Below are positions 1 to 7,194 of a DNA stretch of 64,000 nt, piece after piece. The stretch is taken from positions 1-64,000 of the forward strand of contig NZ_NHRY01000276.1 in NCBI RefSeq assembly GCF_002937115.1, written 5' to 3'. This DNA comes from Rhodopila globiformis (GTDB lineage: Bacteria; Pseudomonadota; Alphaproteobacteria; Acetobacterales; Acetobacteraceae). Both the position numbers and the translations under genes were made by a program. The notes below the pieces were generated by a model. It was not told the DNA's origin and made no database searches. It was given only the letters and a program-made list of their open reading frames with translations. Each line of letters begins with the position of its first letter. Positions within the stretch are counted from its first letter, which is position 1.

Positions 1-1795
1 ACCGGCGATGGGTTTCGTCGAGCCTGCGCCCGGAGGAAGGGCTGCCGTGGGACATGGGCGAGGCCGCGTGCGTGACCGGCGGACTGGGGTGCATGGCCGG
101 CGGCGCGCCGGGATGGAACCCGCCGCCTTGGCCGGCGTGGCTCCACGTGCCGGGACCGGTCAGGCCGGTCCGGAAGCCTGATCCCGGCGGCTCGGGCCGG
201 CGCATCGGCGCGGAGTGGAAATTCGATGCCGAGGGATTGGCGTGGCTTGCCGGAGCCGGACCGGACGCGCCGGGATGGACACCGGCTCCGGGCGCCCCGC
301 CATGGAAGACCGGCCCGGCCCCGGGTGCAACGGCATGCACCCACCCGCCTGGCAAGAGATGCCAGCCCGGAGGGGCGCCGGCCGGGCGCGGGTGGGCCCA
401 GGCCTCGGGCGGACCAGCATGCCGCGGCGGGCCAGAGCCGGCCGGGCCGGGGCCGAAGCCCGGACGCCAGGCGCTGTTCCGATAGCCCGGCAGGCCGCGG
501 GCTTCGGGATGGAAGCGCTCCATATGGATGCGATAGGGCTCCGGCGCCGGCCGCCAGTGATGGAAGTGGTCGTAGTATCCCCAGCCGAGGCCGGCGGCGA
601 ACACCAGGAACACCGGCGCGGTGTCGATCACCGCCACCGGCGCGCCGGCGACATAGCGGATTCCGTCGACGCCATCGTCCCCGGGCGGCAGCCCATAGGG
701 ATAGGGTGCCGGGTCCGGCGGAGGCGGCGCCACGATCCGGACGGAGTCCGCAACGCTGAGCCAGTAGCCGCGGCGGTTGTTGATGGCGTCGGCCTGCTGC
801 TGCCAGTAGGCGTCGGGCGAGTCCTGCGTGACCCGCGCCGCGCCGTTCGCCAGGGCGACCATGGCGACATCGGTGCCGTCGGGCAGCACGCAGGCCCAGC
901 GGTCCGACCCGCCCTGCGGCGAGCAGGTCAGGGTGTCGCCGTGGGCGGCGATATAGTCCTGCAATTGGCTGGCATAATCGCCGCCGAGCCCGACGATTCC
1001 GTCCAGCCCATAGGCCCGGTCGTTGGCCAGCAACGTAGCGGTGTCGCGCACGACCGGATGCACGAGCGTGTCGGGCGGTGGCGGCAGGGTGGCCCAGATC
1101 CCGCGCCGCGCCGCCTGGGCGGCCTGTTCCTGCTCGCGATAGGAGTCCGGCGCCTCGGCGGTGACGCGGGCCGCGCCGTTGACCAGCGCCATCTGCGCGA
1201 CGTCGCTGCCGTCCGGCGTCCGGCAGACGAAACCGGCGGCGCTCCGCGGACGGCAGGTGACCAGGTCGCCCTCGGTGGCGAGGAAGTCCTGCATCTGCCT
1301 GGCCGGCTCGCCGGTGAAGCCCTCGATGCCGAACAGGCTGACACGGGTATCGGCCGCTTCGAGCTGAGCGGTGTCGGCAACCCTGGCCTGGACCAGGGTG
1401 ACCACCTCGGTCCCCGGGCCGGGGTCCGAGGCCGGGGTGGAGGGGCGGATGTCGTCGGGCGGCGGTCCGGCCAGCAGATCCGAACCCGGATTTGGCCCGG
1501 CCAGCACGTCGGGGCTGGAGTCGGCGGTCCTGATGCCGTGCGCGGTATCGGGGGCCTGCGTCGCCCGGGACGATGGGGCGGCCTCAGGCGGCGTGCGGTC
1601 CGAGGCTGGCGGCGAACTGGCGTCTGTCGGCGCGAATGCCGCCGTAAGCGGCGGCGGCGGGCTGGCCCCCGTGTCCGGCCCGCCGATCGGCGTCCGTGCC
1701 GTCGCGGCACCGCCGCACAATGACGCTGCCACCGCCGCTGCCACGGCCCAGGGCAGGCGATGCCGATATGCCTCGTTTCTGCGCTTTATCGACAT
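1..1795 (-). CDS. Exported protein with two degenerate SNase-like domains (3' end outside window)
   Basis: The frame is open from an ATG at 1795 through the left edge, giving at least 598 codons with no stop. Residues 13-33 are a hydrophobic signal or anchor segment after a basic start. A Pro/Ser-rich linker follows to about 130. Two tandem modules then resemble the thermonuclease (SNase) fold, about 131-235 and 245-342. Each has the family pattern of a beta strand, a G-I motif (SLFGIEGF, DGIVGLGG), a Cys pair, 'DGxDVAxxALxNGAARV' and an R-G-I/Y-W end. The usual catalytic Arg and Glu around the VRLxGIxxPE motif are not conserved in either copy, so nuclease activity is doubtful. From about 410 the protein is Pro/Gly/His-rich. 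The domain assignment is mine from pattern; the function is unknown. Confidence 0.8.
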   Translation of the reverse strand, partial: MSIKRRNEAYRHRLPWAVAAAVAASLCGGAATARTPIGGPDTGASPPPPLTAAFAPTDASSPPASDRTPPEAAPSSRATQAPDTAHGIRTADSSPDVLAGPNPGSDLLAGPPPDDIRPSTPASDPGPGTEVVTLVQARVADTAQLEAADTRVSLFGIEGFTGEPARQMQDFLATEGDLVTCRPRSAAGFVCRTPDGSDVAQMALVNGAARVTAEAPDSYREQEQAAQAARRGIWATLPPPPDTLVHPVVRDTATLLANDRAYGLDGIVGLGGDYASQLQDYIAAHGDTLTCSPQGGSDRWACVLPDGTDVAMVALANGAARVTQDSPDAYWQQQADAINNRRGYWLSVADSVRIVAPPPPDPAPYPYGLPPGDDGVDGIRYVAGAPVAVIDTAPVFLVFAAGLGWGYYDHFHHWRPAPEPYRIHMERFHPEARGLPGYRNSAWRPGFGPGPAGSGPPRHAGPPEAWAHPRPAGAPPGWHLLPGGWVHAVAPGAGPVFHGGAPGAGVHPGASGPAPASHANPSASNFHSAPMRRPEPPGSGFRTGLTGPGTWSHAGQGGGFHPGAPPAMHPSPPVTHAASPMSHGSPSSGRRLDETHRR

Positions 1796-2800: not shown

Positions 2801-4411
2801 CTACTGTGGCGGCGTCGCGGCCACGCTGTCCAGGGCCGCGGGCACGACCGGCGGCCTGGTGGCGACGGCCGGGGCGTTGATGTCGGCACTGTCCTCCTGC
2901 CAGCCGCCCCCCAGCGCGTTGTACAGCCCCACGACATCGTTGCTCAGCGCGACATCCGCCTGCACCAGTTGCTGGCGCGTGGCGGTCAGCGTGCGCTGCG
3001 CGTCCAGCACCTCGATGAAGTCAGCCAGGCCGTGGGAATAACGATCGCGCGCCAGGTATTGCGTCGTTTGCGCCGATTTCACCGCCACGCGGATGCGGTT
3101 GCGGGCCGCCCGGTCGGTGCGGTAGGCGACCAGGGCGTCCTCGACTTCCTGCAAGGCGTTCAGCACCGTGCTGCGATAGGCCAGCGCCGCCTGCGCTTCC
3201 TGGGCGCGGGCCAGGCGCAGGTTGGCGGTCAGCTGGCCGCCCTGGAAAATCGGCAGCGAGATGCTGGGGCCGAACGAATAGAAACTGCTCGCCCAGTTGG
3301 TCAGGTAGGCGCCGTCCAGCGCCCGCAGCCCGAAACTGCCGGTCAGCGACACATCCGGGTAGAAGCTGGCGGTGGCGACCCCGACATTGGCGGTGGCCGC
3401 GTGCAGTTGCGCCTCGGCCTGGCGGATATCGGGACGCCGCCGCGCCAGCGTGGAGGGGATGCCGATGCCGATCACCGCCGGCAGTTTCGGCAGCGGCGCG
3501 ACGCGGCCGAGGGTCGCGTCAAGCGTGCCGGGCGGCTCGCCGACGAGCACGCTCAGGCGGTTCATCGCCTGCTCGCTCTGCTTCTCGTAGCCCGGCAACT
3601 GCGACTGGAAGTTGGCGAGCTGGGTGGTCGCCTGGTCGACGTCCAGTTCCGTCGTCAGGCCCTGGCGCTGCCGCATGCGCGTCAGGTCATAAGCTTCCTG
3701 CGCGACGCGGATGTTCTGCACCTGGCTGGTGGTCAACGCCTGGGCGCCACGCAACTGTATATACGCCTGTGCCACCTGCCCTTCCAGCATCACCAGCGCG
3801 TCGTTGGTGGCCTCGATCTGCGCCTCGGTGCTGGCGCGCGCCTGTTCCTCCGAACGCCGCACCCGGCCGAACAGGTCGAGTTCCCAGGACGAGTTCAGCC
3901 CGTACTGGAACAGGTTCACCGGCTGGCCAAACTGGTTCAGCGCGCCGATGATCGAGGAGGCGGCGCGGGTGCCGAGGCCCGGGCTGAACGTGTTCAGCGG
4001 CGACCCGGGCGCGCCGAGAGCCTCTGCCTGGCCATAGGTGCCCTGTGACAGCAGCAGGCCGCGCAGCCCAAGCTGCTCGCGCATGTAGCTGCCGCTGCCG
4101 TTGACGGAGGGCAGGCCGGCGGCGCGGGCGGCGACCTCGCCCTGGCGCGATTCCACCACGCGCAGCACCGCCTGCTGCAAATCCAGGTTGCCGCTGATGG
4201 CCCGATTGATCAGCCGCGTCAGGACGGGATCGTGGAAGCCCTGCCACCATGCCGGGTCGGGATTGGACTGCGGGGTGACCGGTGCGCGGGTGCGGTGCGC
4301 CGACGGATCCCTCCAACTGGCGATGCTGGGCGCCTTCGGCGGAACGAAATCCGGGCCGACCGTGCAGGCGGACAGGCCCAGGGCCAGAGCGCAGGCGATG
4401 GCCCGGCGCAT
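2801..4411 (-). CDS. Outer membrane factor (NodT/TolC family) lipoprotein of a multidrug exporter
   Basis: 536 residues, normal for NodT-type outer membrane factors. The N-terminus is a lipoprotein signal with lipobox LSAC (Cys16), followed by the family signature TVGPDF. Two outer-membrane-efflux repeats can be followed (roughly 60-270 and 280-500), including the ELDLFGRVRR and LARRRPDIRQAE motifs typical of the family. It forms the outer-membrane channel that docks with the periplasmic adaptor. The start codon directly abuts the stop of the DHA2 transporter gene (TGA at 4412-4414), so the two are translationally close. It is the last gene of a three-gene minus-strand operon. Confidence 0.95.
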   Translation of the reverse strand: MRRAIACALALGLSACTVGPDFVPPKAPSIASWRDPSAHRTRAPVTPQSNPDPAWWQGFHDPVLTRLINRAISGNLDLQQAVLRVVESRQGEVAARAAGLPSVNGSGSYMREQLGLRGLLLSQGTYGQAEALGAPGSPLNTFSPGLGTRAASSIIGALNQFGQPVNLFQYGLNSSWELDLFGRVRRSEEQARASTEAQIEATNDALVMLEGQVAQAYIQLRGAQALTTSQVQNIRVAQEAYDLTRMRQRQGLTTELDVDQATTQLANFQSQLPGYEKQSEQAMNRLSVLVGEPPGTLDATLGRVAPLPKLPAVIGIGIPSTLARRRPDIRQAEAQLHAATANVGVATASFYPDVSLTGSFGLRALDGAYLTNWASSFYSFGPSISLPIFQGGQLTANLRLARAQEAQAALAYRSTVLNALQEVEDALVAYRTDRAARNRIRVAVKSAQTTQYLARDRYSHGLADFIEVLDAQRTLTATRQQLVQADVALSNDVVGLYNALGGGWQEDSADINAPAVATRPPVVPAALDSVAATPPQ

Positions 4412-5983
4412 TCAGTGGCCTCCGCCGCGCGATGACGTCTTCATCTCCGACATCAGCAGGGCGGTCGGGATCATGATGAACGCCCCCAGCGCCGTCAGCG
4501 CGAAAACGTCGTTGTAGGCCAGTATGGCGGATTGCTGCTGCAGCGTCTGGAACACCTGCCCTGGCGCCATCTGGGCCGCCTGCGCCGCCGAGTGGCCAAT
4601 GTCGACCAGTCCCTGCTGCGTCTGCTGAAGAAGAACGTTGTACGGCTGGCTGGTCGGGCCGAGGTTGCGGACCATGTGCGCCTGGCTGCTCTGCGAATAC
4701 TGGGTCACCATCGCAGTCGAGATCGAGATGCCGACGCCGCCGAACACGTTGCGCGCCGAGGTGAACAGGGCGGTCGCGTCACCATTCAGCCGTGGTGTCA
4801 CAGTGGCATACGCAAGCGTGCTGATCGGCACGAACAGCAGCGCCAGCCCGGCCGTCTGCGCCGCGCGGTACAGCACCAGGTGGAAGAAATCCAGTTGCGG
4901 CACCAGGTTCGTCGAATACAGCAGCGCCATCCCGAGCGACAGGCCGCCCGCCGCAATGATGTATTTGGTCGGCACGTAGTTCATGATCCGCCCGGTCACC
5001 GGGATCAGCATCGCCAGCAGGACGGCGCCCGGCGCCAGCACCAGCCCCGCCCAGGTGGCGGTATAGCCAAGCTGAATCTGCGCGAACTGCGGGATCAGCA
5101 CCGCGCTGGCGTAGAGCACGAACCCCATGATGCCGATCTGGATCGTGCCCATCGCAAGGTTGCGGTCCTTGAACACCCGCAGGTTGACCACCGGGTTGCG
5201 GGCATACAGCAGGTAGAAGGTGCCGAAGACGAAGCCGCACAGCGACAGCAGCAGGGTGACGCGGATGAAGGTCGAGCCCAGCCAGTCGTAGTCCTCGCCA
5301 CGGTCCACGCCGACTTCCAGGCAGCCCAGGGCGAGCGCGATGAATCCGACGCCGATATAGTCGAACGGCGGCGCCGTGCGCTTCTCCTGCTGCACCAGCG
5401 GCGGGTCCTCGACCAGTTGCATCACGCCGAAGAAGGTCAGGATGCCGACCGGGATATTGATCAGGAAGATCAGGTGCCAGCTGTAGGTTTCGGTCAGGTA
5501 GCCGCCGAGCACCGGCCCCACGACAGGCGCGATGATGATCGCGATGGCGGTCAGCGAGAACGCCTGCTGACGTTTCTCCGGCGGAAAGTAGTCGAGGATG
5601 ATCGACTGCTGCGTCGGCTGCAGCCCGCCGCCGAAGAACCCTTGCAGCGCGCGGAACAGCAGCAGTTCCGTGAACCGGTCAGCCGTGCCGCAGGCAAACG
5701 AGGCCGCGGTGAAGGCGCCGATGCAGATCAGGAAATAGCGCTTCCGGCCGATGCGGCGGCTGAGCGCGCCCGAGATGGTCAGCACGATGCCGTTGGCGAC
5801 CAGGTACGTGGTCAGCGCCCAGGCCGCCTCGTCGGAACTGACCGACAGGCTGCCGGCGATGTGCGGCAAAGAAACGTTCACGATTGTGGTGTCCAGCACC
5901 TCCATGAAGGCCGCGAGCGTCACCGCGACGGCGACCACCCAGGGGTTCGCGTTCGGCTGCCAGCGCTGCTGCGCGCCGCTCAT
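4412..5983 (-). CDS. emrB: DHA2-family (EmrB/QacA) drug:H+ antiporter
   Basis: 523 residues with about 14 hydrophobic segments, the size and topology of the DHA2 branch of the major facilitator superfamily. Visible motifs are LDTTIVNVSLPHIAGSL in the first membrane segment, the loop motif SRRIGRKRYF, and the antiporter motif region GPVLGGYL with the following LIFLINIPVGI. It should export amphiphilic drugs using the proton gradient, working with the upstream HlyD adaptor and the downstream outer-membrane factor. Its start overlaps the end of the adaptor gene by 4 bp (ATGA). The drug spectrum cannot be read from the sequence. No local regulator gene is visible. Confidence 0.95.
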   Translation of the reverse strand: MSGAQQRWQPNANPWVVAVAVTLAAFMEVLDTTIVNVSLPHIAGSLSVSSDEAAWALTTYLVANGIVLTISGALSRRIGRKRYFLICIGAFTAASFACGTADRFTELLLFRALQGFFGGGLQPTQQSIILDYFPPEKRQQAFSLTAIAIIIAPVVGPVLGGYLTETYSWHLIFLINIPVGILTFFGVMQLVEDPPLVQQEKRTAPPFDYIGVGFIALALGCLEVGVDRGEDYDWLGSTFIRVTLLLSLCGFVFGTFYLLYARNPVVNLRVFKDRNLAMGTIQIGIMGFVLYASAVLIPQFAQIQLGYTATWAGLVLAPGAVLLAMLIPVTGRIMNYVPTKYIIAAGGLSLGMALLYSTNLVPQLDFFHLVLYRAAQTAGLALLFVPISTLAYATVTPRLNGDATALFTSARNVFGGVGISISTAMVTQYSQSSQAHMVRNLGPTSQPYNVLLQQTQQGLVDIGHSAAQAAQMAPGQVFQTLQQQSAILAYNDVFALTALGAFIMIPTALLMSEMKTSSRGGGH

Positions 5984-7194
5984 TGCGGCGTCACCGTCAC
6001 CGTCGGCTCCACCGACAGGCCGAGCGGCAGGGTCTGGCGGGGCGCCAGCCCGTGGTCGATGATGATCTTCACCGGCACGCGGCGGACGATCTTGACGAAG
6101 TTGCCGGTGGCGTTCTCGGCCGGGAACGCCGAGAACCGCGCGCCGCTGCCTTGCTGGATGCTGTCCACGTGGCCGCGCAGGTTCAGGCTTGGGTAGGCAT
6201 CGACGCTGATCGACACCGGCTCGCCGGGATGGATGTCGGCCAGCTGGGTCTCCTTGAAATTGGCGGTCACCCAGACCTCGGGCTGCACGATGTAGAACAC
6301 CTGCTGCCCGGGCTGGAGGAAGGTGCCGAGATCGACGTTGCGCCGCGTGATGGTGCCGTCGGTCGGCGCGGTCAGGTTGGTGTAGGACAGGTTGACCTCG
6401 GCCTGCTCCAGGTTGGCCTCGGCCTGGCGCACCTGGGCGTCGCGCTGTTTGACCGTGTCCTCGACGGCCTGGATGGTCTGCTGCACCAGGGAGGCGATCT
6501 TCACCTGGGCGTCGGCATTGCTGACCGCGGCGTTGGCGGACAGCATCTGCGCGTTGGCCTGGTCGATGCTGGTCTGCGTCGTCGCGCGTGGATCGACGCT
6601 GTGCTGGCGTTTGTAGTCACGCTCCGCCTGCACCTGGTTGGCCTTGGCCTGCTGCAACTGCGCCTGCGCCTGCGCCTGGTTGGCCGGCGCACGGACGCGG
6701 GCGACCTCGAGATCGACCTGCGCGCTGGACAGCTGCGCCCTGGCCAGCCCAAGGGCCGCACGCGCCTGGTCGCGCGTGGCGATGTAGTCGCGTGGATCGA
6801 TCCGCAGCAGCAGGTCGCCTTTGTGGACGAACATGTTGTCGTCGACATTGAGCTGGGTGACGTAGCCCGCGACCTTGGGCGCGAAGGCGGTGGCGTTGCC
6901 TTCCGTATAGGCGTCGTCGGTGGTTTCCTCGTTGCGGGTCATCAGCCAGTAGACGACGGCGAGGATCACCACCGCCACGACGACGATGGCGAGGATGATC
7001 AGCGGCCAGCGCCGCTTCGGCTTCTGCTCGCCGTTGCGGTCGTCGTCGTGATCGCTGCGATCCTGCTGGTTGGCGGGCTTGCCTGGTCTGGGCTCGGGCT
7101 GGTCGGCTCGCACTGGCTGGCGGTCGCGCCGGTCGTGCGGGGCTGCCTCCTGCCGATCGGCCTGATCGGCATTGCCGACTGTGTCACCCGCCAA
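5980..7194 (-). CDS. emrA: HlyD/EmrA-type periplasmic adaptor protein
   Basis: 404 residues. Residues 1-62 are charged and probably disordered (many D, R, Q). A single membrane anchor (about 63-84) is followed by TTDDAYTEGN, the conserved start of the EmrA periplasmic region. A biotinyl-lipoyl-like half motif (VAGYVTQLNVDDNMFVHKGD) follows, then a long Ala/Gln-rich coiled-coil hairpin (about 140-275) and the second half domain with APTDGTITRRNVDLGT. It bridges the inner-membrane transporter and the outer-membrane channel. It is the first gene of the exporter operon and overlaps emrB by 4 bp. Confidence 0.95.
   Translation of the reverse strand: MAGDTVGNADQADRQEAAPHDRRDRQPVRADQPEPRPGKPANQQDRSDHDDDRNGEQKPKRRWPLIILAIVVVAVVILAVVYWLMTRNEETTDDAYTEGNATAFAPKVAGYVTQLNVDDNMFVHKGDLLLRIDPRDYIATRDQARAALGLARAQLSSAQVDLEVARVRAPANQAQAQAQLQQAKANQVQAERDYKRQHSVDPRATTQTSIDQANAQMLSANAAVSNADAQVKIASLVQQTIQAVEDTVKQRDAQVRQAEANLEQAEVNLSYTNLTAPTDGTITRRNVDLGTFLQPGQQVFYIVQPEVWVTANFKETQLADIHPGEPVSISVDAYPSLNLRGHVDSIQQGSGARFSAFPAENATGNFVKIVRRVPVKIIIDHGLAPRQTLPLGLSVEPTVTVTPQ

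Follow-up and report, generated by a model that had tools for sequence, protein, structure and literature searches.

Where and when the cell wall is made is partly set by extra domains on class A PBPs; accessory domains of this kind are ODD of E. coli PBP1A and UB2H of E. coli PBP1B. To our knowledge, the sensing of the envelope by Gram-negative membrane Ser/Thr kinases is still a largely open question. The PASTA fold differs from the SNase fold, and SNase and OB folds bind nucleic acid. PASTA domains are described as named for PBPs and Ser/Thr kinases, their partner set (PMC9426605, PMC4632501), and those of S. aureus PBP1 as binding peptidoglycan and being required for division (PMC9426605). 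Tudor-SN (SND1), a eukaryotic protein, combines a Tudor domain with repeats of the SNase fold arranged in tandem, whose catalytic residues are degenerate; it is described as still nucleolytic, cleaving RNA although its catalytic residues are mostly degenerate, with the Ca-binding Asp retained in SN1 and SN3 (PMC5900569). In the literature searched, mostly open-access, no report was found of a link between SNase domains and PBPs or of inactive bacterial SNase domains. The protein presented here shares with Tudor-SN the tandem repeats and their degenerate residues, and differs from it in its signal-type start and its paired Cys.

The window is a stretch of 64,000 nucleotides from Rhodopila globiformis. 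On its minus strand, translation gives one open frame running from 1795 to 2, with 598 codons and no stop. Since base 1 of the window is also base 1 of contig C276, the 3' end of the coding sequence is missing, and the secreted-type protein is 598 residues long as far as it is encoded. It begins with a signal-peptide-like N-terminus judged by eye (residues 1-34, MSIKRRNEAYRHRLPWAVAAAVAASLCGGAATA, then R; 1694..1795, minus strand, as are all features given here), in which a hydropathy scan (19-residue windows, threshold 1.7) flagged no segment. A Pro/Ser/Asp-rich linker, variable across homologues, follows (residues 35-128; 1412..1693). The next sections are two SNase-like modules from which the catalytic residues are absent, module A (residues ~133-236, with C181 and C191; 1088..1399) and module B (residues ~243-345, with C291 and C302; 761..1069), and a third conserved domain (residues ~372-441; 473..682). 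The chain continues in a Pro/Gly/Ala/His-rich low-complexity tail (residues 442-598; 2..472), which runs off the contig.

The two modules are 46.7% identical over 107 columns and both contain the VALVNGAARV-type strand. Each has one Cys pair, and the sole other Cys of the protein, C27, lies in the signal-peptide region; a disulfide would presumably form within each module. The initial annotation was thus right in describing two tandem modules, each with a Cys pair and this strand. It had also placed a His/Pro/Gly-rich tail of more than 180 residues behind them. The composition holds (H+P+G = 48%), but the length does not: this section is really a conserved domain of about 70 residues, which had been overlooked, and a tail of 157 residues. 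The tails of homologues are similar in composition and have basic residues at the end.

The AlphaFold2 model, based on a 12-row alignment, has a mean pLDDT of 84.3 over the 313-residue core and a pTM of 0.48, a value at which the individual domains are trustworthy and their mutual placement is not. A Foldseek search with the two-module core returned the tandem SN domains of SND1 as first match (E 5.6e-10), followed by staphylococcal nucleases (E 2.5e-4). Module B was aligned on staphylococcal nuclease by VIA-align with a Z of 13.8 and an rmsd of 2.2 over 106 residues. These VIA-align rows cover module B, and module A is assigned to the SNase fold because of its identity to B and its similar pattern of strands and helices. 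The Pfam SNase profile (PF00565, gathering cut-off 21) gives 13.9 bits for the whole protein and 16.2 for the core. It matches 10 of 20 module rows at E<=1 (best E 0.013; 15.5 bits), and no module scanned reaches the cut-off of 21 bits. Direct sequence searches of solved structures gave nothing useful; only the profile of thermonuclease-type proteins, A4, arrived at an SNase structure by sequence. There is also a weak match to NCBIfam PRK06518.1-3 (15.2 bits; cut-off 283). The SNase fold proposed from the letters of the window is therefore upheld by the predicted structure and by the profile-profile comparison given below, but not at the Pfam cut-off.

The modules were next compared with secreted alphaproteobacterial thermonuclease-type proteins (PF00565). 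When 20 modules were compared by hhalign with 10 of these proteins, obtained from the search at class level, the probability was 98.9% (E 3.9e-17), and with a wider module set it rose to 99.5% (E 3.4e-22). The fold, the Cys pair and the Y..E..A...RGIW end are the same in both. However, the modules lack both catalytic loops together with D21, E43 and R87, occur as C-terminal fusion domains and remain below the Pfam cut-off. The first deletion removes 15 columns, in the loop after RLxGID (APE...C...CG), and the second removes 5 columns, in the loop with the R87-type Arg. The numbers D21, R35, D40, E43 and R87 are those which we take to be the active-site residues of staphylococcal nuclease, to which A4 was aligned by HMMER with the active-site motifs in register.

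In the joint alignment, D at D21 is found in none of 59 short modules and in 26 of 38 thermonuclease-type rows; for E at E43 the corresponding counts are 0/59 and 21/38, and for R at R87 they are 0/59 and 26/38. The contrast is graded, since the thermonuclease-type relatives are often eroded too. Their rows were obtained from 47 loci, 8 of which had no usable ORF; with L103 and L104 there were 41, and 38 remained when L115, L167 and L103, which have no anchor motif (L.G[IVLM], preferably with P three positions on), were dropped. Cutting at this motif may favour canonical rows. Each Cys is present in 59/59 short modules and in 35/38 thermonuclease-type rows; the Cys pair is common to both and hence is no novelty of the module. 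The alignments with thermonuclease-type proteins agree with the initial annotation that both modules of the window protein are devoid of the usual catalytic residues.

Loss of the catalytic site in the modules is well supported by these alignments, and full inactivity is likely. It is likely rather than proven because the R35-type Arg, absent in the 24 Rhodopila-type modules, is kept in 15 of 25 modules from PBPs and Pro-rich-linker proteins; in addition, some modules retain an acidic residue, D or E, at position D40, among them module A of the window protein with E. A weak nuclease or some other hydrolase activity could be exerted by a rebuilt site, and D66 and N74 are nearly invariant across the module set. 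According to the description of Tudor-SN (PMC5900569), residue loss is no proof of inactivity. However, D21, E43 and R87 are absent in 59/59 modules and both loops are shortened. The invariant columns of alignment A5 are L22, C49, C59, G75, A94, G100 and W102; no His, Asp, Glu or Ser is among them. Residual or altered enzymatic activity is therefore considered quite improbable.

The genome of the window also codes two thermonuclease-type genes over the Pfam cut-off, L103 (46.8 bits) and L104 (37.4 bits), both without the standard APE motif. In L103, L104, L031, L034, L147, L184 and L185 the thermonuclease-type domains have partly eroded active-site motifs, and several appear by eye to be on membrane-anchored linkers. 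They are possible intermediates toward the dead module.

The shell that remains could keep a DNA- or RNA-binding face without cutting, and the secreted protein would then hold extracellular DNA in the matrix or envelope. The known binding of nucleic acid by SNase and OB folds is consistent with this, as are the first Foldseek match, SND1, described as an RNA-binding protein, and the His and Arg in the tail. However, the deleted loops are those which carry the catalytic residues of the nucleotide site, and DNA binding would not explain why the module is fused to the C-termini of PBPs and membrane kinases, as presented below. Nucleic-acid binding is thus an unlikely role.

A maximum likelihood tree was calculated with the active-site columns removed. 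It contains 93 rows and 102 columns, few for this number of rows, is unrooted, and omits 4 near-duplicate rows. In this tree 56 of 57 short modules are found on one side of a branch with bootstrap 95 and SH-aLRT 92. L183, labelled as a short module both here and in the joint alignment, groups outside the modules beside a thermonuclease-type row and is not counted as a member. The inner order is weak because of the 102 columns, and an unrooted tree does not distinguish gain from loss; the direction, that is loss, is taken from the wide occurrence of the catalytic form. Profile, tree and structure prediction demonstrate, at the level of sequence and model, that the modules are related to the thermonucleases. 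The best reading is that the module, which would have a single origin, arose from a nuclease by one loss of the active site. Its ancestor was most likely a secreted, Cys-paired thermonuclease, a kind widespread in Alphaproteobacteria. With the catalytic loops deleted, what remained would have been a shell of the OB fold held together by a disulfide.

The A and B modules of the window protein cluster with modules of other secreted proteins (86/95), and the B modules form a group with support of 100/100. This clustering points to a doubling of the module by duplication within the secreted-protein lineage, and the window protein would be a doubled soluble copy. It is important to note that the fold, the lost catalytic residues and loops, the signal-type start (by eye) and the paired Cys agree with a tandem pseudo-nuclease on an envelope protein, as had been suggested.

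Matches to the window protein at E<=0.001 were found in 12 of 59 genomes, its own included. Eight loci of the same genus besides the window (L002-L009) have the same architecture, while the remaining three matching genomes have parts only. Nine of the 33 genomes examined for the genus, again with its own included, encode the double-module protein. A scan of contigs with the window protein as single query found nothing, but a profile scan with the nine-row alignment A1 succeeded: 11 loci with Acidisphaera, Rhodopila or Acetobacteraceae titles match the window core at 50-58% identity. Since these named loci encode the same architecture, it is not a product of chance. The core averages 71% column identity among the homologues, while tails and linkers vary. 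Weak Pfam matches of the core to DUF333, Phage_spike and DUF7858 (best E 0.0032, 9 members) were discounted as fortuitous or local similarity.

No constant gene partner of the double-module protein was found across the 11 loci, several of which end at contig edges, and sharing is lineage-local. Two upstream ORFs are common to five of these loci and a downstream set to three; one family of window neighbours is also present at L019, L021 and L024. At window positions 2801-7194 (minus strand) there are lookalikes, by eye, of an RND-type outer-membrane factor, an EmrB-type MFS pump and an EmrA/HlyD-type adaptor.

The third domain has the motif GWGYYDH..HW..AP..YR.H.E.FHP.G.GL and is modelled at pLDDT 82.8 as a small β domain of six strands and one helix. 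It has no confident fold match: a Foldseek search gave no match at E<=0.001, and the VIA Z value was at most 2.1. The fold is accordingly not claimed as new. Its relatives were found in 5 of 250 genomes, its own included, belonging to 2 of the 58 genera sampled (g1 and g2), the window genus and one other genus of the family. In these the domain makes up small ORFs by itself or occurs twice in one ORF; some of them begin, as judged by eye, like lipoproteins, and four such proteins scanned had no Pfam match at E<=1. Loci of this family are L011, L012, L014, L015 and G000:C201:13491-13667 (L194), with the pattern GWGYYD..W..AP....HLE..HP.G.G.

The presence of lipoprotein-like ORFs with the third domain in the window genus has a bearing on what the module binds. 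It might dock on a protein and not on a polymer, the partner being, for example, a lipoprotein which activates class A PBPs or some other protein of the envelope; the third-domain lipoproteins would then be candidate partners of the secreted form. Gram-negative class A PBPs are described as dependent on outer-membrane lipoprotein activators (PMC10746261). However, hits to the third domain came from 2 of 58 genera sampled (g1 and g2), and neither is one of the three genera of Acetobacteraceae in which PBPs carry the module. Docking on a protein in place of a polymer is considered unlikely.

The mobility of the module is a feature which could not be seen from the window alone. Searches at the level of class, order and phylum scored the best 20, 16 and 12 candidates per genome, respectively, so that the tallies are lower bounds. 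With the own genome included in each, at least 18 of 240 genomes matched in the class, at least 27 of 299 in the order (in 11 of 64 genera) and at least 54 of 398 in the phylum. In the phylum, only the window protein and genus g267 are found below E 1e-24, the following match being at 2.6e-11; the weak matches inspected were mostly thermonuclease-type.

Class A PBPs with Transgly and Transpeptidase domains and a C-terminal module were found in 12 of the at least 27 genomes of the order, in three Acetobacteraceae genera. The five genomes of g267 contain six PBPs with a terminal module (five with both domains and one with Transgly only) and five Pro-rich-linker proteins with a terminal module, four of them with a clear hydrophobic segment. 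Over its entire length, one g267 PBP shares 97.5% identity with a sequence from Methylobacterium bullatum, and on this ground our guess is that g267 is Methylobacterium. The module is also present in a Microvirga ossetica protein titled 'PBP1A family' (WP_237050587.1). The module-bearing PBPs total 19, of which 18 have Transgly and Transpeptidase and one Transgly only; all four scanned with NCBIfam were over the PBP1A-family cut-off. The Rhizobium and Sinorhizobium rows among the 25 listed of 542 records end where the transpeptidase domain ends. Like ODD and UB2H, the module would be an additional extracytoplasmic domain on a bifunctional PBP, but it is SNase-related and sits at the C-terminus.

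The class A PBPs of the window genome, L101 and L102, are without the module. In the nine genomes of the genus with the double-module protein, no match to the module in a PBP-sized frame was found among the matches listed; conversely, no double-module protein was found among the matches listed for the 12 genomes of the order with a module-bearing PBP. The secreted form may substitute for the PBP-fused form, or the separate occurrence may merely follow phylogeny.

Four Ser/Thr kinases of the window genus (G022, G023, G001 and G014) have a terminal module behind a Pro-rich stretch. In three of them (L092, L181 and L182) the frame ends ahead of the last helix segment of the module and has no G.W. 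The best NCBIfam model for the two kinases scanned is NF033483 (PknB_PASTA_kin), with 288.6 and 297.5 bits, below the cut-off of 450. The match covers model positions 7-363 and 7-350 of 563 and leaves the C-terminal third unmatched; it may reflect the general resemblance of most membrane kinases to this model. A separate Ser/Thr kinase (L150 1301-3154, minus strand, G100) has, close to its C-terminal end, an SNase-like stretch (E 1.6e-4) which is longer and degenerate in a different way.

C-terminal modules are also present in the LCCL-domain proteins L089 and L093, in two short Acetobacteraceae proteins, L077 and L078, and in P0001, a protein with TIR and transmembrane parts encoded by a Caballeronia plasmid. 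The 106-residue frame L055, at a contig start, was left out of the classification. On plasmid p1 of Caballeronia sp. Lep1P3 (L048 2828-8011) the TIR-TM-module gene is followed by genes for a surface protein, a serine protease, a DUF4231 protein and a PGDYG-domain protein, a set which may represent an island for signalling or conflict. A Microvirga ossetica plasmid (L187 2376-3833, plus strand) codes a coiled-coil-looking protein with a signal-like start, by eye, and a C-terminal module.

In all 29 fusion proteins measured, the module match ends no more than 4 residues from the C-terminus. A hydrophobic segment precedes it in 19/19 PBPs, 3/4 kinases, 1/1 TIR protein and 4/6 Pro-rich-linker proteins, from which we infer an extracytoplasmic location. 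This constant position, often behind Pro-rich stretches, would also suit a stable, disulfide-stapled end cap without a specific ligand. However, conservation across partners and genera and the doubling in the secreted protein exceed the needs of an inert cap, and a purely structural spacer is very improbable. The shell would instead have become a mobile extracytoplasmic module, found as single copies at the ends of class A PBPs, Ser/Thr kinases and TIR, LCCL and Pro-rich-linker proteins.

In its use the module has a parallel in the PASTA domains which Gram-positive bacteria carry on PBPs and on PknB-type kinases; these have the same partner set and the same C-terminal position past a transmembrane segment, if the topology of the module is as proposed. 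The module differs in that it has no PASTA profile match, occurs as one copy in the fusions seen and is found in Gram-negative hosts. This parallel is an analogy, since the Pfam matches obtained for the fusion proteins at E<=0.01 include no PASTA profile. The main reading, with a probability of roughly 0.5, is that a dead nuclease has become an envelope-facing docking or sensor module, used in a PASTA-like manner, of which the window protein is a doubled soluble form.

Of the ligands named in the initial annotation (nucleic acid, metal or wall), the wall is best supported, because there are class A PBPs and membrane Ser/Thr kinases which carry the module as their C-terminal domain. What it reads is probably peptidoglycan, one of its precursors or a partner in wall synthesis; this is argued from the set of PBP and Ser/Thr kinase partners, the same as for PASTA, and from the binding of peptidoglycan by PASTA of S. 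aureus PBP1. As partners, TIR and LCCL are not specific evidence for the wall, and peptidoglycan itself is a guess from the company of the module. By this association, the module would bind an envelope ligand (peptidoglycan or a partner protein of cell-wall synthesis), and binding would place or regulate the enzyme attached to it. The window protein would be secreted and would act as a multivalent binder, in which modules A and B, the third domain and the His/Gly/Pro tail bridge components of the envelope. A more specific proposal is tentative: the module may be a Gram-negative counterpart of PASTA, made from a dead nuclease, which reads peptidoglycan or lipid II and has been exchanged among class A PBPs, Ser/Thr kinases and other membrane receptors, with the window protein, as a secreted bivalent form, competing with the membrane-bound forms or bridging them.

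The module is present on PBPs and kinases and, where scanned, is not caught by any Pfam model at cut-off. Its hosts include genera which are likely tractable (Methylobacterium-like), so that the question of a wall module is directly testable. It looks like a clean bacterial case of a single conversion from enzyme to binder followed by domain shuffling. The sequence comparisons suggest that a pseudo-nuclease family has come to be attached to cell-wall synthases and sensor kinases, the window protein being its secreted tandem form, and that a disused enzyme was turned into a binding part of the cell envelope.
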